In this document: in pieces, positions 1 to 29,556 of the stretch
Layout: each line of letters opens with the position of its first letter
Position numbering within the stretch: the first letter of the stretch is position 1
Source: a virus
Virus record (IMG/VR): IMGVR_UViG_3300047494_000150
Location: 1-29,575 of that record
Direction: 5' to 3' (one strand)
DNA: 29,575 nt
The notes under the pieces: model-generated
Database searches by the model: none
What the model was told of the DNA's origin: nothing
The model's input: the letters and a program-made list of their open reading frames with translations, nothing else
Made by a program: the position numbers and the translations under genes

Positions 1-522
1 CACGTGGATAGCTGAGCGGTCTTGGATGTAGTCTCCAGAATCGCTACCAGCAATACCTTGGTGACAAATTATTAACGCCGGCATATCAATTTTTGATACC
101 CGCGCGCGAAAAGCGTCTGGATCGTGCTGGTAAGGAATAAACTCAACTGAATGCCCACGATAAGAGATATCATTAGTGAACTGCGGGCGGTCTATCACGG
201 CGGCACCTGGTATGAGTTTTAAAAAATCTAGACTATGCTCTGATGATTTCTCGTTAAGTTGGTCATGGTTGCCACGAATAATGTAGCAACTGGTCCTCCA
301 GTCGTCGGGATGCAGTGCCACTTTACTAAAGGTCTTGATCATACGGCTTACTACCTCCCCGCGCATGTTAGCCTTGGTGTCGTGGAGGTCACCCGCCACG
401 ATAAGCGGTACGACCAAATCGTTGGCGTGCTTGATAGCTTGCTGGGTGGCGGCGTCAGCTACCTCGAGCGTGGGGAGGCTGTAGTGGACATCACTTAACA
501 GGACTGCGATTGGTTTAGACAT
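1..522 (-). CDS. Metallophosphoesterase (SbcD/Mre11-like), 3' end outside window
   Basis: The visible 174 residues carry the calcineurin-like phosphoesterase signature in order: D11-x-H13 near the N-terminus, GDLHD at 44-48, GNHD at 84-87 and a later metal-ligand histidine at about 154 (CHQG). These residues hold the two-metal centre of phage and bacterial DNA nucleases and phosphatases of this family. The start ATG (522-520) overlaps the stop of the RecA-like gene as TAATG, and the Shine-Dalgarno GGAGGA lies within the last codons of that gene, so the two are translationally coupled. Next to a RecA-like ATPase, a DNA end-processing nuclease is the likeliest role (inference). The C-terminus is missing from the window, so the capping domain cannot be judged; a protein phosphatase remains possible. 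Confidence 0.85.
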   Translation of the reverse strand, partial: MSKPIAVLLSDVHYSLPTLEVADAATQQAIKHANDLVVPLIVAGDLHDTKANMRGEVVSRMIKTFSKVALHPDDWRTSCYIIRGNHDQLNEKSSEHSLDFLKLIPGAAVIDRPQFTNDISYRGHSVEFIPYQHDPDAFRARVSKIDMPALIICHQGIAGSDSGDYIQDRSAIHV

Positions 523-1382
523 TAGTCCTCCGATTCAGAGCCGCCACAATATTTAAAACCGTCAGCAGTAATGTCAAACTCTACGACTTTAGGCCCAGGA
601 TTGCTGCGGTCAATGTGATTTTTGAACAGCTTCCAGCTCACCTTCGCGCCGATTCTAACTTTCTCACCTTTAACAGTCTTCTCGAGCCAGCCCTTACGCG
701 ACACCTGGTATGTGAGGGAGCTGAAGAAGTTTACGGCTTTACCGCCGGCATTGGTCTTACCGGGGCTACCGATGTTGTCATACGTATAATTTATGATCAG
801 CAGGGCGATATCGTGCAATACGCGTTTAGCGATAAGCTTATTCAGGCCTTCACGGTTGGTCTTGCCCTTACCACCGGGTGACTGGTTGGTCTCGCTTAAG
901 GAGCGCTCAGCGTCTCGCTTGCTAATAACGTTACCGATGGAGTCGATAACGATAAGCAGCTTAGCGCCTGGCTTAGTCTTGATCTGATCGTCGATGAAGT
1001 CGCATACCGCATCAAAGATGTCCTCTGCGATAGACTCTTGCATGATGTGCACACGCCTAGGGTCTACGCCCCAGTCGGTGAAGTCCTTCTTTGTGGTCTT
1101 GCCCTCGGTCTCAACGTAAAGGACCGTAACGCCTTGCTCTTGCGCGGCTTTGATGGCCGCTATGGAGCACGACGTCTTGCCGCTATCGCTATCGCCAGCG
1201 ATCATTACGATCTTGCGAAATGGCAGACCCTTCGTGTTAGTAGATTGCTGCCACCAGTCAGGCATAACGACATACTCCATATCGGCAGCATCCGGCATAT
1301 CGCTAGCGAGAGTTATTTTAGGGCGCTTATTGTAGAGTGCCGCGGTCTTGTCTTTAGCCAACTTCCACCTCCCATTTTCCAT
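522..1382 (-). CDS. RecA-like recombinase/ATPase (phage UvsX/RecA family)
   Basis: 286 residues (numbered from the ATG) with a RecA-fold ATPase core: Walker A GDSDSGKTS at 63-71, a catalytic-type glutamate in YVETEG near 91-94, and Walker B LLIVID at 142-147 followed by SIG. Shorter than bacterial RecA (about 350), as is common in phages. Expected role: strand exchange in phage DNA recombination and replication. Start choice is uncertain. The ATG at 1382 has no clear ribosome site and overlaps the upstream gene by 29 nt. A TTG at 1361 (start MAKDKT) has GGGAGG at good spacing and overlaps the upstream stop as TTGGCTAA, so 522-1361 (279 aa) may be the true gene. The next gene is a metallophosphoesterase, which supports a recombination module. 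Confidence 0.88.
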   Translation of the reverse strand: MENGRWKLAKDKTAALYNKRPKITLASDMPDAADMEYVVMPDWWQQSTNTKGLPFRKIVMIAGDSDSGKTSCSIAAIKAAQEQGVTVLYVETEGKTTKKDFTDWGVDPRRVHIMQESIAEDIFDAVCDFIDDQIKTKPGAKLLIVIDSIGNVISKRDAERSLSETNQSPGGKGKTNREGLNKLIAKRVLHDIALLIINYTYDNIGSPGKTNAGGKAVNFFSSLTYQVSRKGWLEKTVKGEKVRIGAKVSWKLFKNHIDRSNPGPKVVEFDITADGFKYCGGSESED

Positions 1383-3366: not shown

Positions 3367-3879
3367 TCAAACCACCTTATCTACGATTTTAAGCTTCAAA
3401 CACTGATCGGCAGTCAGGTAGGTTGTACGCAGGTGAAGCTTATCCCAGGTCTCTTTAGACGTCCCCGTGAGGTCCTGAAGAATGGTTGACCACTGGTCCT
3501 CCATACGCTGGCCCACCTTGATGTCGCGCTTCTGCTCCCAGAGCTCACCTACGTTAGCACTACGCCCTTGATGCACCATCATCCAGGAGTCCTTAGTCAT
3601 GATTCGATTGTCCCCGCTAGCCAGAAGCAACACAGCGGCGGAAGCAACAAAACCAAAGGCCCTGATTTCGATATCACAAGGGCTAGTGCGCATCCGACCA
3701 CTAAAAGCCAGACTGTCGAGAACACTGCCACCAGGACTATTAAGCTCAACCACAACAGGAGCTGCACTCTTAGCCTCCAACGCCGCAAGGTCCTTTGAGA
3801 ACTGTAGATAGGACTTCTCGTCAATTTCGCCCACGATGTACAGGGTACGTTTGTTAGGCTTGAGATGCGTTGATGTCAT
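3367..3879 (-). CDS. ClpP/SppA-like serine protease (S14 family)
   Basis: 170 residues covering the ClpP fold. The oxyanion-hole motif NSPGGSV is at 47-53, the nucleophile elbow AFGFVASAA has Ser80, and the histidine is in WMMVHQG (His103). The usual third triad residue, the Asp before FLSAxEA in ClpP, aligns with Thr152 in RTTYLTADQ, so the triad may be non-standard. The C-terminal LTADQ...KIVD block matches the family. Phage members cleave capsid scaffolds or act as stand-alone proteases; lying in an early-type operon far from head genes, this one is unlikely to be a prohead protease (inference). It has an AAGGCGG ribosome site, its own putative promoter and a 5' leader hairpin. Confidence 0.85.
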   Translation of the reverse strand: MTSTHLKPNKRTLYIVGEIDEKSYLQFSKDLAALEAKSAAPVVVELNSPGGSVLDSLAFSGRMRTSPCDIEIRAFGFVASAAVLLLASGDNRIMTKDSWMMVHQGRSANVGELWEQKRDIKVGQRMEDQWSTILQDLTGTSKETWDKLHLRTTYLTADQCLKLKIVDKVV

Positions 3880-5028: not shown

Positions 5029-5253
5029 ATGAATAATAATATAAGGGCTGTACTGATGCGTTCGCAGACTCCTTTCTGGATTAAAGCGTACTGGAAGCTT
5101 CCCTCAGAATTACAGAAAGCCTTTAGCCCTAGTGTATCAGACCTTGGTCCTATGGCTGATAATAAATATGACGCTAATATGAGACATCTTATTGAAAACC
5201 TAGCGCCTTTAGAGCGCTTATGCTATAATCTTGAAAACGAGGAGGTCGTATGA
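5029..5253 (+). CDS. Small protein with LAPLERL-type C-terminal tail, 74 aa
   Basis: First rightward gene, with GGAG upstream. The body is unrecognised. Its C-terminus, LAPLERLCYNLENEEVV, matches the tails of several other small proteins in this window (LLAPLERLALGVPDEL, LSPVERLALGVPDDV, LSPVELLALGVAV). The final codons contain the GAGGAGG that serves the lipoprotein gene, whose ATG overlaps this stop (ATGA). Confidence 0.65.
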   Translation: MNNNIRAVLMRSQTPFWIKAYWKLPSELQKAFSPSVSDLGPMADNKYDANMRHLIENLAPLERLCYNLENEEVV

Positions 5254-5930
5254 CTTACGCTGCTAAGATCTTTACGCCGGTGCTTATTGCCGTCACCTGC
5301 CAACTGCTTATGGCTTGCAGCCCGGCCACCTACGAGGTTGTTGGTACAGGGCCTGTGCTGCCTACACCTACTCCGCCACCACCGACAAGCGTGTCGCCGG
5401 CGCCGCCTGCTTTAGGGCAGATTCAGGAGATTGTATTGGCCTTTAACAACACGCAAGAGGCTCAGGGGTTGGAAGCTATTACACCTGGTCTGGACTGTCA
5501 GCTATTCACAGTCCCCATTAACACGACGTCGATCGCCACTTCGATTTTAACGCCTGTAGGAGGCTTCCTGAACGTTTCAGGCTTTAACCAACCCAACTGT
5601 AGCGGGTGTGGACTTAACGTCTTGCCTGAGGCCCTCCAGAGCGTTTATACGACGTATTTCGAATTACAATGCACCGGGTACCTGGTTTCAACTACCGATG
5701 CTTGGCACACGCTCGCTTTACCGTCAGATGACGGTGCTATTGTATCTGTCGGAGGGCAGCAGGTTGTAAACAATGACGGTCTGCACTCAGTAAGCACTGC
5801 CACAAGTGCTGTATTCCTCTCAACCGGAGTGCACCCAGTAGAAATTGACTACTTACAAGGGCCAGGCCTTATGGCGCTTCAGCTTTTTGAAGACGGTAGT
5901 ATCATAGACCCAGCCCTTTTTTACCACTAA
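5250..5930 (+). CDS. Phage lipoprotein with Pro-rich linker and PA14-like domain
   Basis: 226 residues. A signal peptide ends in lipobox LMAC (Cys23) with Ser at +2, which predicts outer-membrane retention in a Gram-negative host. A Pro/Thr-rich spacer (about 35-55) leads to a beta-rich domain. From about 136 to 215 it has the PA14/GLEYA hallmark: aromatic-rich FELQ...GYL, then LPSDDGAIVSVGGQQVVNNDG, a predicted glycan-binding loop with the DDG and NNDG pairs, and a final LSTGVHPVEIDY strand. Cys pairs at 117/120 may form a disulfide. Known phage lipoproteins often block superinfection by masking receptors, and PA14 domains bind carbohydrate. A host-surface or receptor-masking role is inferred. 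Confidence 0.75.
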   Translation: MTYAAKIFTPVLIAVTCQLLMACSPATYEVVGTGPVLPTPTPPPPTSVSPAPPALGQIQEIVLAFNNTQEAQGLEAITPGLDCQLFTVPINTTSIATSILTPVGGFLNVSGFNQPNCSGCGLNVLPEALQSVYTTYFELQCTGYLVSTTDAWHTLALPSDDGAIVSVGGQQVVNNDGLHSVSTATSAVFLSTGVHPVEIDYLQGPGLMALQLFEDGSIIDPALFYH

Positions 5931-5937
5931 GGTGTAT

Positions 5938-6156
5938 ATGCAAGAATATAAAAAAGCATATTATATCCCGCTGAGACAATGGGTGCGTTATACTGTGCAC
6001 GATCTTGCCTACGCGCTTGTAGTATCTCGTGAGTATCCTTATGGGACTTATCTGCATAACGAACTGTGGTCTTATCGCCCTCCAGGTCTTATAGACGAGC
6101 CGCATTTACTAGCACCACTAGAGCGCCTTGCGTTAGGAGTGCCAGATGAACTTTAA
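5938..6156 (+). CDS. Small protein with LAPLERLALGVPDEL tail, 72 aa
   Basis: ATG at 5938 follows AAGGTG; a GTG two codons earlier is less likely. The N-terminal body is rich in Tyr and Arg (QEYKKAYYIPLRQWVRYTV) and of unknown function. The C-terminal 16 residues belong to the recurring tail family. The codons for LGVP form TTAGGAGTG, the ribosome site of the next gene, whose ATG starts 11 nt before this stop. Confidence 0.65.
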   Translation: MQEYKKAYYIPLRQWVRYTVHDLAYALVVSREYPYGTYLHNELWSYRPPGLIDEPHLLAPLERLALGVPDEL

Positions 6157-6376
6157 ACCTGGCGACAAGGTATGGTTTATAAGTGCCTCAATGACCGGCA
6201 GCGGTCGTATCAATATGACCCAGCAAAATCATCTCTGGATAGATAATCTAATAATAAATGGTAAGAGACACCCAGTGCCAGAGTCGCTTGTGTGCTGGAG
6301 TCGTGACTGTGTTTTTCTAATTCAAACATTATCACCTGTCGAAAGGCTTGCTCTTGGCGTCCCGGATGACGTTTAA
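6146..6376 (+). CDS. Small SH3-like protein with LSPVERLALGVPDDV tail, 76 aa
   Basis: Starts MNFKPGDKVWFISAS, a KPGDKVW opening typical of small SH3-like or KOW-type beta barrels. The end repeats the same C-terminal tail as its upstream neighbour but with different codons at almost every third position, so the similarity is at protein level. Overlaps both neighbours by exactly 11 nt. Function unknown. Confidence 0.65.
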   Translation: MNFKPGDKVWFISASMTGSGRINMTQQNHLWIDNLIINGKRHPVPESLVCWSRDCVFLIQTLSPVERLALGVPDDV

Positions 6377-6563
6377 CAACCGCTCTGTGGAGGACGTTAT
6401 TATTGACCTCCAGACGGCTTTAGCCATTCATCTAGGTTTTCGAGACGACTTTACGATATTGCTCCCTAAGGAGACGGTTGATAAGCTGGGCTTGACCCAG
6501 GTGTCGGGACCTGGTAGTATAACATTTATCGCGATTGATAAAAAACGGAAGGTTAATAAATGA
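6366..6563 (+). CDS. Hypothetical protein, 65 aa
   Basis: ATG at 6366 overlaps the upstream stop by 11 nt (ATGACGTTTAA), the same geometry as the previous junction; the in-frame leucines before it lie inside the upstream tail. Soluble mixed alpha/beta protein (SVEDVIIDLQTALAIHLGF) with a basic end (KKRKVNK). No family recognised. Confidence 0.6.
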   Translation: MTFNNRSVEDVIIDLQTALAIHLGFRDDFTILLPKETVDKLGLTQVSGPGSITFIAIDKKRKVNK

Positions 6564-6604
6564 ACCATAGTAACGTGAAACCTCAACGCGGCGATGAGTG
6601 TTGA
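6560..6604 (+). CDS. Possible 14-aa coupling or leader peptide
   Basis: A 14-codon frame (MNHSNVKPQRGDEC) starts with ATG overlapping the upstream TGA and has GGAAGG seven bases before. Its stop overlaps the next ATG by 11 nt, and that next ATG has no good ribosome site of its own. It may therefore act mainly to deliver ribosomes. It covers the first copy of the 27-28-bp direct repeat. Could equally be chance. Confidence 0.3.
   Translation: MNHSNVKPQRGDEC
6571..6598 (+). repeat. Direct repeat copy 1 (copy 2 at 7334-7360) at gene starts
   Basis: TAACGTGAAACCT followed by ACGCGGCGATGAG occurs here and at 7334-7360, differing by one substitution and one indel. Both copies straddle a gene junction and supply an ATG. 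In copy 1 the ATG opens the 96-aa gene; in copy 2 the ATG runs into a stop after three codons and a GTG at 7364 takes over. Confidence 0.75.
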
Positions 6605-6884
6605 GGAGATTTTGGCTCTAGTTCCTGCTGGTGAATTTACTTTAGAATCCGGATATGAGGTAGGCCCAATATTCGGAGAGAAAATTAAGTTTAAGAACAA
6701 GACTGTAAGTCTTGTAAATAGATCAGCCTACGACACCGTCTGCGCGATGCTCAGGTTGGCGGTTGAGCAGCGTGACAATGCACTTGTAGAGGGAGATAAA
6801 ACAGTCGATTTCTGGGATTCCATTGAAGGCAGAGAACGCGACAACGCCGCGCTGGCACGCATAGCACGAGGGGAGACGGTGTGA
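6594..6884 (+). CDS. Hypothetical protein, 96 aa
   Basis: Starts MSVEEILALVPAGEF inside the first copy of the direct repeat. The C-terminal half is a charged helix (LRLAVEQRDNALVEGDK...RERDNAALARIARGETV), probably coiled coil, of a type common in phage accessory proteins. Stop TGA overlaps the next ATG by one base. Function unknown. Confidence 0.65.
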   Translation: MSVEEILALVPAGEFTLESGYEVGPIFGEKIKFKNKTVSLVNRSAYDTVCAMLRLAVEQRDNALVEGDKTVDFWDSIEGRERDNAALARIARGETV

Positions 6885-7042
6885 TGATTATCTTATCTGG
6901 CATCGGATGCCTAATATTAGTAGTTATGGCTCTGTCTTTAATTGCGGCTCTCTGGCAGGAAATAGCCCTCATTGTATTTGTGGTCGGTACCTGCGCGTTT
7001 TTAGTTTGGTCGGCGAATTACATGTTTGAGGTATTAAAATGA
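6884..7042 (+). CDS. Two-helix membrane protein, 52 aa
   Basis: A 52-residue frame fills the space between its neighbours. It starts MIILSGIGCLILVVMALSL, has a short polar turn (WQE) and a second hydrophobic helix (IALIVFVVGTCAFLVW), then ends YMFEVLK. Its start shares a base with the upstream stop (TGATG) and its stop overlaps the next start (ATGA). The hairpin topology resembles small holins, but the gene is outside the holin pair; role unknown. Confidence 0.6.
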   Translation: MIILSGIGCLILVVMALSLIAALWQEIALIVFVVGTCAFLVWSANYMFEVLK

Positions 7043-7341
7043 GCACCGACAAATCCACGGCACCGATTTACAATGTCAGCCCTGAGACCTTGGGTGAAAT
7101 TACAAGGTGCAAGTCAGTTGAAGAGCATATAGCCAGAAAATGGAAAGCACTCGAAGCAATGGACTTGGGGCATCTGGCTGTTTGCCATATGGACCAACGA
7201 AGAGGACAAACCATGAAATCGACCGCAGCGTGTTTGCATGACTTTGACGATGTTGATCCAGAACCCGGCAAGCCATGGCTCGGTATATGTCGTAAGTGCG
7301 GCAAGAAAGTGAAGCTTGCGGGTGTACCTTGTGTAACGTGA
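7039..7341 (+). CDS. Hypothetical protein with C-terminal zinc-ribbon-like module, 100 aa
   Basis: Residues 1-58 are an unrecognised helical region. Residues 65-87 carry C-x-H and CRKC (Cys65, His67, Cys84, Cys87), a plausible zinc site, followed by Cys98. An internal ATG at 7213 (Met59) has AGAGGA seven bases before, so a separate 42-aa zinc protein could also be made from the same frame. Stop overlaps the second repeat copy. Confidence 0.6.
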   Translation: MSTDKSTAPIYNVSPETLGEITRCKSVEEHIARKWKALEAMDLGHLAVCHMDQRRGQTMKSTAACLHDFDDVDPEPGKPWLGICRKCGKKVKLAGVPCVT

Positions 7342-7363
7342 AACCTGACGCGGCGATGAGCTT

Positions 7364-7555
7364 GTGACAGCCGACCTGCGCGCAAGCGTGCAGCGAGTGA
7401 TGGCTTTGGGCCTCTCGCGCCAATACCTCATAGCTCTTCGCGAAGTCGTCTCCTTCCAAGAAGCTAGAAATGAATGGGACTCAACGATGCTTGTGTTAAC
7501 CGCGAGCCCCGAAGAGCGGGCCGAAGCAGTCATGAAGGTGTTAGTAAATGAGTAA
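7364..7555 (+). CDS. Hypothetical helical protein, 63 aa (GTG start)
   Basis: GTG at 7364 lies at the end of the second direct-repeat copy, where the repeat's own ATG (7356) leads to MSL and a stop overlapping this GTG. The protein is helical and basic in its first half and ends ASPEERAEAVMKVLVNE. The SPEERAE segment faintly recalls the SPLERLA tail, but I do not count it as a member. Overlaps the next gene by 8 nt. Confidence 0.5.
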   Translation: MTADLRASVQRVMALGLSRQYLIALREVVSFQEARNEWDSTMLVLTASPEERAEAVMKVLVNE

Positions 7556-8120
7556 GAAATTTGAGTTGGCTCTTGATACCGAAAAGAAGTTTTTTGGCAT
7601 CTCAATGTTCCGAATCAGAGCTCTGATAAGCTTCTCTTTCGTAAGCGCTGGCTCACTTGGCGGCTATGTGGAAAAAGAAGCGAACCTCAGTCATGAGGGC
7701 AACGCGTGGGTGTACGGCGATGCGCGGGTGTACGGCGATGCGCGGGTGTCCGGCGATGCGTGGGTGTCCGGCGATGCGTGGGTGTACGGCAACGCGTGGG
7801 TGTACGGCGATGCGTGGGTGTACGGCAACGCGCGGGTGTCCGGCGATGCGCGGGTGTACGGCAACGCGTGGGTGTACGGCGATGCGTGGGTGTCGAAGCA
7901 GAATCACTCTATAAACGTCACGAACCTCCGGTACTCATTTACATCTCTTCCTAAGGGTGTGCAGGTGGGCTGCCAATTCATGCCGCTGAAGGAGTGGAAG
8001 GCAAAACATATTGAGGTAGGCGCAGCTCACGGCATGAGTGCTGACCTGAGTAAAGCTTACTTCGAACTGATGCGAGCAGTTCGTCGCATTCAGCGGATTA
8101 CAGCAAAGGAGAGCAAGTGA
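7548..8120 (+). CDS. Hexapeptide-repeat (left-handed beta-helix) protein, 190 aa
   Basis: Belongs to a phage and prophage family that opens FRIRAL...LGGYVEKEANLSHEGNAWV and continues with imperfect hexads V-(Y/S)-G-(D/N)-A-(W/R). Here eleven near-identical hexads (residues about 51-116) should form three to four turns of a left-handed beta-helix. The C-terminal part (INVTNLRYS...VGCQFMPLKEW) matches the capping region of the family. The acetyltransferase active residues of LbH enzymes are not evident, so a binding or structural role is more likely; the exact function is not known. Confidence 0.75.
   Translation: MSKKFELALDTEKKFFGISMFRIRALISFSFVSAGSLGGYVEKEANLSHEGNAWVYGDARVYGDARVSGDAWVSGDAWVYGNAWVYGDAWVYGNARVSGDARVYGNAWVYGDAWVSKQNHSINVTNLRYSFTSLPKGVQVGCQFMPLKEWKAKHIEVGAAHGMSADLSKAYFELMRAVRRIQRITAKESK
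7698..7895 (+). repeat. Eleven tandem 18-bp repeats encoding hexads
   Basis: Eleven in-frame 18-bp units of GGC (GAT/AAC) GCG (T/C)GG GTG T(A/C)C type, ending with TCG. Units differ only at three codons (D/N, W/R, Y/S). The array is stop-free in all six frames. Near-identity at DNA level suggests recent expansion or homogenisation by slippage or recombination. Confidence 0.9.
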
Positions 8121-8123
8121 TAT

Positions 8124-8663
8124 ATGACCAACACACCAACTACCGCCGATGAGCGTGAGGCTTTCCACTACGCCAATCAATTTGTGACCACGCCTCGTAA
8201 AGAGTTACTGGCATGGCAACAAGACAAAGCCGACGACTACCTCGCAGGCATCGCGCACGAGCGCGAGAGTGCGATGTTAGCTGGACAGCTAACAATCCCT
8301 AATATTAGCTCAGAGGCCTATCATTCGAGCGAACCAAGTGCCGACGAGGCGTTTGAGAAGGCCTTGAAGGAAGCTGCAAAGCAGGCTTTGTCAGCTCACC
8401 CGGACTGGGAAACAGGCGCCAAATGGGGCCGCGACTACAGCAAGCGTGAGTCGGCGGCGGAGATTCGACTGAGCCAAACAATTCTTGAACAGCTTCAGCG
8501 CGCCAACAAAGCCTCAGACGCTATCAAGGACGCGCGCAACGCCGAACTCGAAGCTCAAGTAAAAGACACCAATCAGAAGTTCGACGAGGTTTGGGCGAGT
8601 TACATGAACGCCTGCAAGCGCATCGCCGAGCTAGAACAGGGGCCGAAGACAGGTGATGAATGA
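8124..8663 (+). CDS. Hypothetical helical protein, 179 aa
   Basis: Polar protein, mostly alpha-helical. The first 60 residues include an ADEREAF...YANQF region; residues about 110-175 form a long charged helix (LEQLQRANKASDAIKDARNA...RIAELEQ), likely coiled coil. Proteins of this shape are frequent phage accessory products of unknown function. Stop overlaps the next ATG. Confidence 0.6.
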   Translation: MTNTPTTADEREAFHYANQFVTTPRKELLAWQQDKADDYLAGIAHERESAMLAGQLTIPNISSEAYHSSEPSADEAFEKALKEAAKQALSAHPDWETGAKWGRDYSKRESAAEIRLSQTILEQLQRANKASDAIKDARNAELEAQVKDTNQKFDEVWASYMNACKRIAELEQGPKTGDE

Positions 8664-8893
8664 GTCACACTACATGCTTAGTATGCGGAAAGCCTAAAGA
8701 TGTACTACATGCCCATGCCGGATGTCAGGTCGGAATGTCTGCCTGGCTTCCTAAGGGCTGGGAAGCTGGGTATGGGCAGGAGCCGCCAGCTGTTAAATGT
8801 GAGTGTGGGAGTGATAAGACTTACGGCGAGGGGACACCTTTTCATTCAGCGTGGTGCCCTAAGTATGTTCCTCATAAAAGGAGTATTGGATGA
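8660..8893 (+). CDS. Small Cys/His-rich, zinc-knuckle-like protein, 77 aa
   Basis: Cys6-x2-Cys9 with His17, His19 and Cys22 could form one zinc site; Cys47-x-Cys49 with His62 and Cys66 could form a second. The rest is short loops. Such proteins in phages are usually nucleic-acid or protein binders. Overlaps neighbours by 4 nt at both ends; its last codons hold the AAAGGAG of the endolysin gene. Confidence 0.6.
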   Translation: MSHTTCLVCGKPKDVLHAHAGCQVGMSAWLPKGWEAGYGQEPPAVKCECGSDKTYGEGTPFHSAWCPKYVPHKRSIG

Positions 8894-9267
8894 TTACACG
8901 AGATGAAGTGCTTATGGGTAGGGATAAAGAGTTTCCATTAACACCTGAATTGGAGGCAAATCTTGCTAAGCTACTTACTGCTCTTAATAAGTATCGTGCT
9001 ATCTACGGCAGCCCTATGCTGGTTAGTTCAGGATATCGCCCAGGGCACTATAACCGGGATGCAGGTGGCGCTGCTCATAGTAGTCACGTTGTGTGCCTTG
9101 CTTGCGATTTCCATGATTCGGATGGGCAGCTAAAGGCCTGGGTAGCGGCCAACCTGCACGTGCTCGAGGATTGCGGGCTGTATATGGAAGATCCGACACA
9201 CACGAAGACCTGGTTGCATTTGACAGTTCAAGCGCCTAAGTCTGGCCACCGAGTGTTTATACCATGA
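8890..9267 (+). CDS. Endolysin, peptidase M15 family (D-Ala or L-Ala-D-Glu carboxypeptidase type)
   Basis: 125 residues of a single M15/VanY-like catalytic domain. SSGYRPGHYN at 46-55 is the substrate Arg loop. SSHVVCLACDF gives the zinc ligands His66 and Asp73, and TWLHL gives the third ligand His110. It would cleave peptide cross-links of host peptidoglycan. There is no signal peptide, so it needs a holin, yet the holin-like genes are on the opposite strand at the end of the late operon. A good ribosome site (AAAGGAG) precedes the ATG. Confidence 0.85.
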   Translation: MITRDEVLMGRDKEFPLTPELEANLAKLLTALNKYRAIYGSPMLVSSGYRPGHYNRDAGGAAHSSHVVCLACDFHDSDGQLKAWVAANLHVLEDCGLYMEDPTHTKTWLHLTVQAPKSGHRVFIP

Positions 9268-9545
9268 ACAAAGTCAAGGTCGGACAATTGTATATGCTTA
9301 ACATCAGCCGCACTATATTTATAGTTACTGGAAAAAAATCGGACGTAATGTGGCATTTAAAACCGCTCACACACACAAGTTGGCTTGGGGTCAGAACTGA
9401 TCGGGACAGTAATAGTGCATATCTATTAGACTCGACCCTCTATACCCCACTAGATAACTTATGTGCCGTCGAGCTGTTAGCCCTAGGTATTACTGAGGAG
9501 GAATTCCTAGGGATATCCACTCCTCAACCGCACTCGACAGAATGA
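9264..9545 (+). CDS. Small SH3-like protein with VELLALGI tail segment, 93 aa
   Basis: Starts MNKVKVGQLYMLNISRTIF, a small beta-barrel-like opening. Residues about 67-84 (DNLCAVELLALGITEEEF) match the recurring tail, but the frame continues 13 more codons and runs 56 nt into the convergent protease gene. The extension may be accidental read-through of the ancestral tail. Last gene of the rightward operon. Confidence 0.55.
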   Translation: MNKVKVGQLYMLNISRTIFIVTGKKSDVMWHLKPLTHTSWLGVRTDRDSNSAYLLDSTLYTPLDNLCAVELLALGITEEEFLGISTPQPHSTE

Positions 9546-10146
9546 CCTCGCCGTTATCTTGGACGGCGGTATTGACACCAATCACAGTCCCTGTATCCGC
9601 GTCAATCACCGGACCACCCGACATGCCAGGGAATAGGAAGCCCTCACCTGCGAACTGAAGTGCCATACGATGGATGTTGGTTATGTCGCTGCATACGGGC
9701 GATCCGCCCATAGGAAAACCGCAAGCGACAATGTGATGACCCTTAAGAAACATCTCCTCTAGCTTAACCGGGCGAATCTCAACAGGCATCTGATCGAAAG
9801 CGCTAAAATCACCTTCGATGGTAGCCTGATCTAACCGGTCGTCCGCACCAATCACTTTGGCTACCAGGTGCAAATCAGCATCGTCAAACGACCTTACCTC
9901 TACTTCAGGCATTCGTATCTTTGATGAGTGTTGGCCACGTCCCATTGTGCGTTGTACGCAGTGGGCAGCAGTGAGCGCACGCGTAGGCGACACCACCACA
10001 GCCGAGCAGAAGAAGTGATGCGTCTTAGGGTCGATGAGCCTAATCATTGATGGCTTCTTATGTGCAGCAGAGGCGGCGCGTGGGAGCAGCATGCCTAGCA
10101 TAGCCAAGCAGAGACCAATAGCGAATAGGACGGCGACTTTCTTCAT
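9490..10146 (-). CDS. Secreted trypsin-like serine protease (S1 fold)
   Basis: 218 residues from the ATG at 10146, which follows AAAGGG and lies one base after the holin stop. A Sec signal peptide (KK, hydrophobic core, cut after AASA near residue 27) precedes a chymotrypsin-fold protease. TAAHC has His62, LDQATI offers Asp106 and GMSGGPV has Ser176. Cys47 and Cys63 match the conserved disulfide that brackets the trypsin histidine. It should act in the periplasm or outside the cell. A secreted S1 protease at the end of the late/lysis operon is unusual; it could digest envelope proteins at lysis or process surface or virion proteins (inference). Confidence 0.85.
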   Translation of the reverse strand: MKKVAVLFAIGLCLAMLGMLLPRAASAAHKKPSMIRLIDPKTHHFFCSAVVVSPTRALTAAHCVQRTMGRGQHSSKIRMPEVEVRSFDDADLHLVAKVIGADDRLDQATIEGDFSAFDQMPVEIRPVKLEEMFLKGHHIVACGFPMGGSPVCSDITNIHRMALQFAGEGFLFPGMSGGPVIDADTGTVIGVNTAVQDNGEVILSSAVEEWISLGIPPQ

Positions 10147-10147
10147 A

Positions 10148-10339
10148 TTAAGACCCTTTGGTTTCAGTAATCTTCTGAGCGAACTTGCCACTAAAGGCCG
10201 CACCCACAAACGTTAATACACTCGTATCTTTACCGCTAATAGCAAGATATCCGGCGATAAGGAGCGCTAGGATGCACATAAAGCGCATTGAACTGATGTC
10301 ACCTTTTTCGCTTAACAATTCCTTAATAAATGACATCAT
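10148..10339 (-). CDS. Putative holin, 63 aa
   Basis: Starts MMSFIKELLSEKGDISSMRF, then one clear hydrophobic helix (FMCILALLIAGYLAI) and a second weaker one (VLTFVGAAFSG), with a charged C-terminus. This matches small two-helix phage holins that follow an SDDRLDRIE-type protein. Two consecutive ATG codons (10339 and 10336) allow alternate starts, a feature known from dual-start holins. Overlaps the upstream gene as ATGA. Confidence 0.65.
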   Translation of the reverse strand: MMSFIKELLSEKGDISSMRFMCILALLIAGYLAISGKDTSVLTFVGAAFSGKFAQKITETKGS

Positions 10340-21736: not shown

Positions 21737-24700
21737 TCAACCGAAAGATCTAGAGGCTTTCGAAGTACGAGTACCTTTCTTAACACCTACAAGCAGGTTA
21801 AGTCCTGATAATGACAGGCCTTGTCCGGCAGCGGCGCCTAACGACGGGTCGTATATTTCTGACACAGTCACTTGGAACGACTCGCACTTCTGGATCTGGG
21901 GGAAGACGCGTGCTTCAAAGACGTTACCCGGCCCACCACCCCAGTTACCGCCCGTACCCCAGGAGGCTTGCGAACCCCACGTGCCGCCATAGTTGTCCGG
22001 CGTGACGATAGTAGCTTGACTAGGAGAGGGGTTGTAGTCATACGCCAGCTGCACATTCAGTTTAAACGGCGTATAGTAGGTACCTAAAAGCAGCATCTGA
22101 TAGAAGCGTTCATAGCCCTGCAACCCTGCCACGTTGAACCATGCGGTCGTAAAGCCGATTAGAACCGGCGTGGAGCCGTCTAGGAATACATTAGGCGTCT
22201 CTTGGAACACCTGTCCGTAGGAATTGAGATAGGTGAGCTGGGAGCCATACAGCGTACTGCTGATCGCTGAGATGTTGCTATGCACACCCCATTGGGACAT
22301 GAAGTAGTCGTACATCAGCGTTAAGCTATTGTTAAGAATGAACCTAACCTGATTAGTAGCTGGGATGCTCTGGGCGCTCACTGCGGTTTGTGAGTTATAC
22401 TGCTCAACTGGAGCACCGATGTAGTTGGTGCTTAAGTCTCGTCCGAGGAGCCAGATTCCTTTGTCGGATTGGAACATGATGCCGTTTGGCATGAGCACGA
22501 TGCTAGACGGATTACTGCATCCCACTGAACTGGTGATAAAGATTGGGTCGGAAAAGTCGCTATTAGCTCCAGTATTGTCAGGTCCGGTCCCTGTGAGATA
22601 GTAGATAGCATCTCTCTTGAATATGATAAGCTTGTCGTCCATCGCGCTGAGGGCAGTAATGGGCCCTGTGCTTCCCTGAGCTCCGCTAGTTGGCGCGATG
22701 TATAGAGTGAGCAAGTCGGACATCTCAACGGGTACTGCCTCGATAACCTGTTTACTAAACCATAGCAGATTTTGGTCCTCGGCGTCAACTAGGAACAGGC
22801 GGTTCTTATATAGAGCTGACATCGTGCAGGCAGGTGCGGCTATATCCTCTACCACGCCGCCAGTTGTATAGATAATGGCGTTACCTAGGATAGCGCTATC
22901 CGTGTTAGTGTCCGTAATCGTAACGAAGTCGACACTTGTAGAATTTAATGTCGGGTTTGTAACGCTGGTGAACTGGTAGTATACCTGCTGGGCAGCGCTC
23001 CAGCGATAGCCTACGATGCGAACCGGATTGGGGGCGGTTTTGTAGGTAAGTCTAAGTGTTGGAACATATAAGGTATTATTCGGAGTACCAGCTGCTGTCT
23101 GAATAGTGACGGGTACGCTCGGCGCTGAGCGGTGCAGGTTACCCTGGTTATCCGTCCACTCATAGGTAAACTGGTAGTAAAACGTCTGGGCGGTGCCGGT
23201 TGTGGTTGTAGTTGCAACTACGTTGTCAGGCCACACATGGAAGCCGTGTTCAACCGGACGAACACCATCATACTCCCAAAGCTGGCCTCCAGTGAGGTGC
23301 AGTGCTCCTGCTATCTCGCTTGAATACTGACCCGAGTTGTTAATCCCAATGCTAGCGAGGTTGACACCTGTCTGGGTGTAGATTGAGGTAAGGGGTACGG
23401 ATGAGGTGCTTGTCGTCTTGTTAATGGTTGTGAGGAAGTCGGCGTAGAGATAGGCCACTTTATACGAGCCCCCCTGTTGCGTCACCGCTGGTAGCACCTG
23501 GCTTGTTGCATACCCACCGCCGTTTGAATACGCTAGGCGCATATAGATGTTGCCGAGCGTGTCGATTAAGAAGTAGGTGGGTTGATCCTTAGACGGCGAG
23601 GTGATGGCGTAGTTGAGCTCACCATAGGTCGCGAGCATATAGACTGTGTTATTGGGGCCTGTAAATGCCTTAGAGCCTAGCCCGACTGAACGCAAGATTG
23701 TGCCATTTTGCGTCACCGTGCCGCCGATAGAGCACGAGACACTGTTTAGGTAGTCAGTCTTAACGCCTGTGGTTGGGTAGGGGGAGATATAGGTGTTCGC
23801 CACCTCATAGACAATATTATTCGTGCCAAAGGCTCCGCTCGGGTTGGTGACGGCGGAGGTGAGCGTATTAACGTTTTGCGCAGTAATCACCGGCCTTGTC
23901 GACAGGGCGGGCCCTAAGATCTGGTTATAGCATAGGGTGTACCCATTAGTCGAGGTGCTATCCCAAAAGGTCACCCATACGAAGGCTTGCACAGGGTCGG
24001 CAGCAAGACTCATGAGGCTAGCTGTATGACCTGTAATGATGACAGGCACCGCGACACTAAAGCTTGAGGTGACATAGGTGACCGCGATAGTAGTGCTAGT
24101 CGCCGACCATGCCAGGTATAGGTTGCCGGCGAGCACAACGCCGTCGTAGCCGGTTGTAAGGCTCACTACGGTCGAGGTACCACTCACCGACACAGTACCT
24201 ACTGTAGACGCGTTGGTGCTGCTGACGAATAGTACTTGAAGCGTGCTAACTCCTCCTACAGTCGCCATATAAGTTATGGCGAAATAGTTGCCTAGGACAA
24301 ACACTCTAGGGTTGGTGGCAGTGCTAGGGAGTGCGGTGCGCGAGACAATCTGTTGTCCTGTAGAGCTATCGCTCACCTGGTAGTAGCCGAGGGAGTTGTC
24401 GATGTACACCAAACAAACTAAGCCGTTAGCGGCGATGGCACTGTCAGGAGCTGTCTGTGAGGTGCTCACGCGCACGAGCGGTAGCGTGCTTAGGCTAATA
24501 GGCTGGACGATGCCTCGGTTAAGCCACGACTGCGTATCCTGGCTGTATGCATAAAGGCTCGAGCCAGTAGCGGTGAGATTACCGTTAAGCGTCGTAAGAT
24601 TGGTCTGCAGTGTATTAGGTAAAGATGTTAAGTTACTGAAACCATTACGCTTAGTAAGACGCCCCACCTTATTAAACACCGTATTGGTGAGATTGGTGAA

Positions 24701-24787
24701 GCTTGAGGTGCTTAGCTGATAAGGGTCGGTTTTCGAATCCAACCCTTTGGCAAAGTTGATGGCGACGGGTTGCTTCTGAAGTGCCAT
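21737..24787 (-). CDS. Large tail protein, P22 gp10-like (hub/nozzle), 1016 aa
   Basis: Beta-rich protein of Ser/Thr/Val/Tyr strands. The N-terminal signature INFAKGLDSKTDPYQL followed by TNLTNTVFNKVGRLTKRNGF is typical of phage packaged-DNA stabilisation or tail hub proteins that close the portal channel. The middle contains TWEW-like beta blades (FTYEWTDNQGNLHRSAPSV), then SALYKNRLFLVDAEDQNLLWFSK, consistent with a propeller-like nozzle. It lies directly after the fibre-linker genes and before internal virion proteins, as in other short-tailed phages. Start overlaps the upstream stop (TAATG). Confidence 0.75.
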   Translation of the reverse strand: MALQKQPVAINFAKGLDSKTDPYQLSTSSFTNLTNTVFNKVGRLTKRNGFSNLTSLPNTLQTNLTTLNGNLTATGSSLYAYSQDTQSWLNRGIVQPISLSTLPLVRVSTSQTAPDSAIAANGLVCLVYIDNSLGYYQVSDSSTGQQIVSRTALPSTATNPRVFVLGNYFAITYMATVGGVSTLQVLFVSSTNASTVGTVSVSGTSTVVSLTTGYDGVVLAGNLYLAWSATSTTIAVTYVTSSFSVAVPVIITGHTASLMSLAADPVQAFVWVTFWDSTSTNGYTLCYNQILGPALSTRPVITAQNVNTLTSAVTNPSGAFGTNNIVYEVANTYISPYPTTGVKTDYLNSVSCSIGGTVTQNGTILRSVGLGSKAFTGPNNTVYMLATYGELNYAITSPSKDQPTYFLIDTLGNIYMRLAYSNGGGYATSQVLPAVTQQGGSYKVAYLYADFLTTINKTTSTSSVPLTSIYTQTGVNLASIGINNSGQYSSEIAGALHLTGGQLWEYDGVRPVEHGFHVWPDNVVATTTTTGTAQTFYYQFTYEWTDNQGNLHRSAPSVPVTIQTAAGTPNNTLYVPTLRLTYKTAPNPVRIVGYRWSAAQQVYYQFTSVTNPTLNSTSVDFVTITDTNTDSAILGNAIIYTTGGVVEDIAAPACTMSALYKNRLFLVDAEDQNLLWFSKQVIEAVPVEMSDLLTLYIAPTSGAQGSTGPITALSAMDDKLIIFKRDAIYYLTGTGPDNTGANSDFSDPIFITSSVGCSNPSSIVLMPNGIMFQSDKGIWLLGRDLSTNYIGAPVEQYNSQTAVSAQSIPATNQVRFILNNSLTLMYDYFMSQWGVHSNISAISSTLYGSQLTYLNSYGQVFQETPNVFLDGSTPVLIGFTTAWFNVAGLQGYERFYQMLLLGTYYTPFKLNVQLAYDYNPSPSQATIVTPDNYGGTWGSQASWGTGGNWGGGPGNVFEARVFPQIQKCESFQVTVSEIYDPSLGAAAGQGLSLSGLNLLVGVKKGTRTSKASRSFG

Positions 24788-28858: not shown

Positions 28859-29122
28859 TCAAGCACCTGTCTTAAGTTTGGGCACTTGCAGTAAGACATA
28901 ATAACCACAGAAATCACATGTTTCGCCATCTGCGCTCTTAGTCTCGATTAGGGTCGAGAAGTTACTCTGCCCTTTGCGTCCATTATATTTAAACGCATCT
29001 AGACACTGGCAGTGGGGTGTGGCCTTTTGTTGGGCAGGTAGCTTAAGCGCGGTATCAACGGAGATCCTGCTAAGGATGTCGTCAGCATCATCTGCCAAAA
29101 GCTCAGTGATAGGGTTTTTCAT
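28859..29122 (-). CDS. Small Cys-rich protein, 87 aa
   Basis: N-terminal helix (ITELLADDADDILSRI), then Cys38-x-Cys40 and Cys69-x2-Cys72 (HCQC and CDFC), plausible zinc ligands. Start overlaps the upstream stop (ATGA); its TTAGGAG ribosome site is encoded by the LALGV tail of the upstream protein. Unknown role. Confidence 0.6.
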   Translation of the reverse strand: MKNPITELLADDADDILSRISVDTALKLPAQQKATPHCQCLDAFKYNGRKGQSNFSTLIETKSADGETCDFCGYYVLLQVPKLKTGA

Positions 29123-29556
29123 ACAGCAACTCCTAAGGCTAAAAGTTCAACTGGGGACAAAAAGCTTATTAAATCCAACAACTTTAAATAGCACGGCGTT
29201 AAGTCGGAGGCGTAGGCGGCGTAGGTGGCGTAGGAGGTGGCGTAGGAGGTGGCGTAGGCGGCGGCGGCGGCGGCGTAGGAGGTGGCGTAGGCGGCGGCGG
29301 CGGCGGCGACGGCGGCGTAGGAGGTGGCGTAGGAGGCGGTGGTGGTGGCGGTGGCGTAGGCGGCGGCGGCGGCGGCGGCTCTATTATACTCTAGCTGCTG
29401 CGTTGTAACTGAGGTAGGATCTTTAAGCCATTGGGCTACTAGAGGTAAGTAAATTGAATTAGGATCTACTGCCAAGGCACAATTGTAAGCAAATTGCACC
29501 TGTATCTGGCGGGGTAGTTTTGTAAGAAGATTCTCTAAGTCAATTCTAGTTTTCAT
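29119..29556 (-). CDS. Ala/Tyr-repeat protein with LSPVELLALGV tail, 145 aa
   Basis: Residues 1-58 are a helical domain (TRIDLENLLTKLPRQIQVQF ... LVAQWLKDPTSVTTQQL). Residues 59-117 are a low-complexity Ala run with Tyr/Ser/Thr at intervals (AAYATSYA-type). Such arrays after a helical domain are known in phage proteins loosely annotated as putative immunity-like, though that label is weak. The end, FLSPVELLALGVAV, belongs to the recurring tail family, on the opposite strand to its other members. Ribosome site AAGGG precedes the ATG. Confidence 0.65.
   Translation of the reverse strand: MKTRIDLENLLTKLPRQIQVQFAYNCALAVDPNSIYLPLVAQWLKDPTSVTTQQLEYNRAAAAAAAYATATTTASYATSYAAVAAAAAAYATSYAAAAAAYATSYATSYATYAAYASDLTPCYLKLLDLISFLSPVELLALGVAV
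29206..29380 (-). repeat. GGC/GTA-rich trinucleotide repeat tract
   Basis: About 175 bp of mixed GGC, GTA, GGA and GGT triplets (plus strand) encoding the Ala/Tyr/Thr/Ser array on the minus strand. It is open in an opposing frame as an Arg/Trp run, a by-product. Likely length-variable by slippage. Confidence 0.85.

Follow-up and report, generated by a model that had tools for sequence, protein, structure and literature searches.

C-terminal tails of five window genes

The window analysed here is one complete IMG/VR virus record (IMGVR_UViG_3300047494_000150) of 29,575 bases, and the element in question is a short peptide motif, hereafter the tag, which recurs at the C-termini of otherwise dissimilar small proteins. 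A preliminary reading of the DNA letters (the sequence-only reading) had proposed five such tails, and all of them are encoded in the window, in five listed open reading frames (ORFs):

5029–5253, plus strand: 74-aa protein with tail LAPLERLCYNLENEEVV (motif at 5200–5232), overlapping the next start by 4 nt
5932–6156, plus strand: 74-aa protein with tail LAPLERLALGVPDEL at 6109–6153
6146–6376, plus strand: 76-aa protein starting FKPGDKV, with tail LSPVERLALGVPDDV at 6329–6373
9264–9545, plus strand: 93-aa protein starting VKVGQLY, with tail LCAVELLALGITEEEF followed by 12 more residues
29119–29556, minus strand: 145-aa Ala/Tyr-repeat protein with tail LSPVELLALGVAV, homologous to proteins of relatives that match DUF6931

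Four of the five tails overlap the start codon of the next gene (at 5250, 6146, 6366 and 29122), and there is no gene directly downstream of 9264–9545 on the plus strand. Directly upstream of this last gene lies an endolysin-like gene (phrog_894; 8890–9267, plus strand).

To score the tails, the last 45 residues of 2,376 ORFs were scanned with BLOSUM scoring, with shuffled tails as control. The window tails scored 30.2–39.4, whereas roughly 7,100 shuffled tails reached at most 24.6. At the DNA level, a degenerate pattern of the motif matched three times in the window, where shuffles lead one to expect 0.00 matches. Furthermore, an iterated profile run over 3,450 ORFs gave 27 C-terminal matches at a score of at least 14, two internal matches and none in shuffles. 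These three controls rule out chance as the source of the tails, and the enrichment at C-termini in related phages that had been suggested as a check is present.

Recurrence of the tag in related phages

Relatives were collected through the 1,016-aa protein encoded at 21737–24787 (13 at first, then 80 through alignment), and the records of 26 of them were read whole, in blocks of at most 20 kb at whose edges spanning genes may be missed. Many of these records are fragments, and a gene given as absent is one missing from the sequence read; outside the cited annotated records, genes are mechanically called ORFs. The 6146–6376 protein alone retrieved no relatives, and none of the 21737–24787 protein were found in the phages collection.

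In total, 46 small proteins from seven genomes carry the tag (G017, 11; G012 and G034, 8 each; G010, 6; G000, 5; G004 and G031, 4 each), with the consensus [LM][TS]xLE[KR][IVL][IVL][YFL][GDN][IV]. The Glu is found in 45 of the 46 tails, Leu, Val or Ile precedes it in all 46, Ser or Thr occurs in 41, and 0–17 residues follow the motif. A DNA pattern for the LEKIIYDI form matched 19 stretches across IMG/VR, but ORFs of at least 30 aa with this form are confined to the present clade, save one of 39 aa, so the tail is not an IMG/VR-wide motif. The LSPxExLALG pattern matched four contigs, and the sole ORF found among them has it far from the C-terminus.

At least two kinds of body carry the tag

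The tagged proteins fall into two classes. Class A comprises 15 Ala/Tyr-repeat proteins, some of which match DUF6931 (PF22011), and includes all four tagged proteins of G031. Class B comprises 31 proteins of 69–99 aa, which show no general similarity in phmmer except in two pairs, although many start with FKxGDxV; several of the small window bodies begin in a similar way ([FV]KxGDxV-like). The bodies had been described as unrelated. This holds at the level of sequence but not in the sense of five separate kinds, as there are at least two kinds, a putatively small barrel-like and an Ala/Tyr-repeat, DUF6931-type body.

The Ala/Tyr-repeat proteins of relatives match PF22011 with E-values of 1e-7 (above the cut-off) and 8e-5 (below it). 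The window protein at 29119–29556 matched no Pfam family at E ≤ 1, PF22011 included. In phmmer, its body matched G017 protein 25 (3e-13), which itself matches PF22011 at 1e-7, and G004 protein 8 (2e-17), values that the repeat composition may inflate. We provisionally assign it to the DUF6931 type through this homology to relatives that match the family. Ala/Tyr-repeat proteins of G001 and G006 (L016:4280–5286 and L024:10593–11424) end in the related motifs EFNDLELMLMRS and EFSELEKLLL. Since the MoxR-DUF2201 gene pair described below was not found in either genome, this type of ending may predate the tag system.

Class B proteins gave no confident Pfam or PHROGs family; against KOW/SH3 families the best match was PF00467, with an E-value of 0.0074 that lies below the family cut-off. 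AlphaFold2 (AF2) predicts five strands and a C-terminal helix for this class. The model of L137:7095–7337 reached a predicted local distance difference test score (pLDDT) of 74.5 and a predicted template modelling score (pTM) of 0.59, while that of the window protein at 6146–6376, with five strands and a helix at residues 64–70, is of low overall confidence (64.8/0.31). In Foldseek, the former retrieved mostly small barrels (FeoA, YorP, PetP, SH3, NusG), all with E-values of at least 0.08, and the latter nothing usable.

Selection on the peptide and genome-specific flavour

The second and third window tails share 11 identical residues but only two identical codons. The synonymous positions of the tails are therefore randomised and selection acts on the peptide, as had been suspected. 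Identical residues are encoded by identical codons in 251 of 571 cases, against 227 expected from codon usage. This near-expected codon identity rules out recent gene conversion, while older exchange between tails is compatible with it. Within genomes, tails are 65% identical and bodies 21%, which is the opposite of tails that diverge while bodies stay conserved.

The tag differs from phage to phage, and we refer to each variant as a flavour: SPVERLALGV in the window, LTKLEKVIYGV in G017 and LEKIIYDI in G010. SPVERLALGV, which had been taken as the tag itself, is indeed present in the window but is the flavour of the window phage only; the tail LAPLERLCYNL of the 5029–5253 protein bridges to the LExIIYDI form of relatives. 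The similarity of class B tails was 35.9 within and 27.6 between genomes, a result that none of 5,000 label permutations reproduced (2 of 5,000 without the window genome). Among DUF6931-type proteins, the agreement of the tail with the flavour of the respective genome is clearest in G000, in G017 and for one copy of G004.

A candidate partner, MoxR-DUF2201

Phylogenetic profiling over the 26 relatives (the fragment G000 was excluded) picked out a MoxR-like AAA_5 ATPase together with a DUF2201_N/DUF2201 protein, a pair that each of the five class B genomes encodes (G004, G010, G012, G017 and G034). Two further relatives, G020 and G031, have the pair as well; in the remaining 19 of the 26 it was not found. 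Apart from the window, all tagged genomes of the clade encode the pair. A scan for DUF2201 gave 30 loci and, among them, two further genomes with tails (seven in G047, three in G049). In four genomes, the distance to MoxR-DUF2201 is at most 5 kb for 20 of 33 tagged genes, against 53 of 218 among the other small genes (Fisher 5e-5). A common gene order is class B genes, MoxR, DUF2201 and a DUF6931-type protein, with variations in G004 and G034. All DUF2201 proteins read retain an intact HExxH motif, and every one from the clade also has an intact DTSGS. In G010, G012 and G034, a subtilase-family gene stands beside the pair.

Recurring tails were also sought de novo by counting small-protein pairs whose last 20 residues are alike although their bodies differ; the N-termini served as control. 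In 28 records with DUF2201, 222 of 52,821 C-terminal pairs qualified, compared with 33 N-terminal ones. In 26 records without it, which include parts of T4, KVP40, phiKZ, SPO1, ICP1, P1 and Mu, the numbers were 9 of 25,405 and 8. The two sets differ in recurring tails with a Mann-Whitney p of 3.5e-4, a value that carries no phylogenetic correction, and seven control phages had none. Outside the clade, the tails read [TS]xLxxALL in G054, xKVL[FY]G in G055 and PEEFI in Vibrio phage phiKT1024, where three tagged annotated genes lie directly downstream of an annotated metal-dependent peptidase; weaker recurring tails were seen in G053, G020 and pYD6-A. Over L272:13311–19348 (plus strand), seven small phiKT1024 proteins near the metal-dependent peptidase gene end in PE[EDM]F[IV].

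Proposed docking mechanism

The proposal of a portable C-terminal tag is supported by its recurrence on 46 proteins, its C-terminal enrichment, its randomised codons, its genome-specific flavour and the higher conservation of tail than body, and such a tag would be read by a common partner. We give about even chances to the reading in which the tail is a docking tag for a shared partner, most likely the phage's own MoxR-DUF2201, with the bodies as adaptors. The tail would then be a short docking peptide, predicted to form a short helix, on an arsenal of small phage proteins, and all tagged proteins of one phage would be recruited to the same partner, with which the tag would co-evolve and thus vary from phage to phage. 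This partner would consist of the MoxR-like AAA+ ATPase and the DUF2201 protein, in which an HExxH metallopeptidase domain is joined to a VWA domain whose DxSGS metal ion-dependent adhesion site (MIDAS) is intact, a pair usually encoded near the tag-bearing DUF6931-type proteins. The variable bodies may bind differing targets, which the tail would pass to the ATPase/peptidase for remodelling or cleavage. By analogy with the ubiquitin-like (UBL) ligands of Rea1, the Glu that nearly all tails share could serve to complete the metal site of the MIDAS. A host factor had also been suggested as partner; because the flavour differs between related phages, a partner encoded by the phage seems more probable than a conserved factor of the host.

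The T4 capsid-targeting sequence, the cargo-loading peptides of encapsulins and the ssrA tag are short terminal peptides that route different proteins to one partner. The present tag resembles them as a terminal routing peptide; in contrast, it differs between related phages, and its partner is a candidate. In group 2.2 jumbo phages, a role in virion assembly was suggested for the same kind of gene pair, a MoxR ATPase and a vWA protein with an N-terminal metallopeptidase domain, and no shared C-terminal motif was found in the text of that study (PMC7824862). In the AAA+ machine Rea1/Midasin, the MIDAS takes different clients (the UBL domains of Ytm1 and Rsa4) via a Glu that completes the metal site (PMC6624252). 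In that machine a folded UBL domain acts as ligand, whereas here a short C-terminal helix would bind. Bacterial MoxR-vWA ternary conflict systems (PMC7159879) share the MoxR-vWA core with our candidate and combine it with a third component as well as with variable effectors, which in some cases are peptidases. These systems are cellular, the third component is VMAP, iSTAND or FtsH, and no shared C-terminal tag was seen in the passages considered. No literature was found on a shared C-terminal tag of small phage proteins, on MoxR with DUF2201 or on DUF6931.

Several observations weigh against docking to MoxR-DUF2201. The pair is not in the window, where the contig ends beside the DUF6931-type gene at which relatives would lead one to expect it; as this gene starts 19 nt from the contig end, the expected neighbours would fall outside the record. 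G050 and G052 have DUF2201 but no class B tails were seen in them, and genomes drawn from the same clade do not count as independent cases. A comparable pattern of co-occurrence is seen for an 81-aa protein. The GC content of the window (51%, against 37–43% in tagged relatives) may contribute to part of its flavour, yet G054 and G055 are AT-rich and have further, different flavours. No recurring tails were found in five DUF2201-positive phages, several of which are N4-like (N4, Pylas, AD45-P3, KB57 and Possum, with 40 kb of AD45-P3 and 20 kb each of KB57 and Possum covered), and MoxR-DUF2201 is therefore not sufficient. Finally, the Glu is not invariant in the flavours of G054 and G055, and thus the MIDAS idea cannot cover all lineages.

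Alternative explanations

The tagged proteins might instead be one fast-evolving SH3/KOW-like family in which the tail is a conserved structural C-terminal helix, inherited vertically and with no docking partner. The FKxGDxV starts common in class B, the predicted fold of five strands and a C-terminal helix and the mostly small-barrel Foldseek matches (E ≥ 0.08) agree with this. However, the same tail is found on Ala/Tyr-repeat proteins and on the 5029–5253 protein, which lacks the KGD start, and the flavour tracks the genome across dissimilar bodies, which makes this explanation rather unlikely. Homotypic assembly, in which tagged proteins bind one another or the DUF6931-type proteins through the tail, would also fit the genome-specific matching across bodies, but it leaves the association with MoxR-DUF2201 in lineages with other tails unexplained, and we regard it as unlikely. 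The partner could also be another phage protein, such as the 81-aa protein (METNIALFTLL...DRKIVI; for instance L172:7244–7489, minus strand, and L036:12034–12279, plus strand), which occurs only in genomes with LExIIY-type tails. Among the records searched, only G010, G012, G017, G034 and G047 have it, and in G012 its gene lies between two tagged genes. Nevertheless, the tagged genomes G004 (a fragment) and G049 did not yield it, nor did the window, and it has no homolog in the G054, G055 and phiKT1024 regions searched, so that such a partner appears improbable.

A signal for the packaging of proteins into virions would likewise be a short portable sequence on dissimilar proteins, and the assembly role proposed for the jumbo-phage pair (PMC7824862) would be in keeping with it. 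Tagged genes cluster with MoxR-DUF2201, however, and tags are missing from relatives that have the same structural-region protein (21737–24787), which leaves packaging with little chance. The hydrophobic endings LALGV and LALL superficially resemble ssrA-type tags, but the 0–17 residues that follow the motif speak against a signal at a free C-terminus, and related phages differ in flavour; a degron for a host protease is accordingly very improbable. The other suggestion of the sequence-only reading, a mobile DNA cassette for translational coupling with an incidental peptide, drew on the overlap of four of the five window tails with the next start codon. This overlap is real in the window but not general, as most tails of relatives overlap no downstream start, and with the synonymous positions randomised as well, the cassette is hardly credible.

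It is possible, although we propose this only tentatively, that in several phage lineages a lineage-private C-terminal code on whole sets of fast-evolving small proteins feeds captured targets to a phage-encoded AAA+ ATPase/metallopeptidase machine for remodelling or degradation. Through the tag, a large number of small hypothetical phage proteins can be recognised by sequence and linked to one uncharacterised ATPase/peptidase pair, whose role thereby becomes testable. Were the adaptor model true, the variable bodies would indicate host or phage targets.

Other genes of the window

No Rfam families or tRNAs were found in the window. Further genes were noted as follows:

522–1382, minus strand: UvsX-like recombinase (phrog_97, E 8.6e-33)
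3367–3879, minus strand: head-maturation-protease-like gene (phrog_94) surrounded by small genes; a run of large genes beginning near 11 kb lies about 7 kb away
7548–8120, plus strand: 190-aa protein with tandem VYGDARV/VSGDAWV repeats (phrog_7964, E 1.1e-62)
9490–10209, minus strand: trypsin-like serine protease, judged by eye (AAHCV, GMSGGP), with a hydrophobic N-terminus

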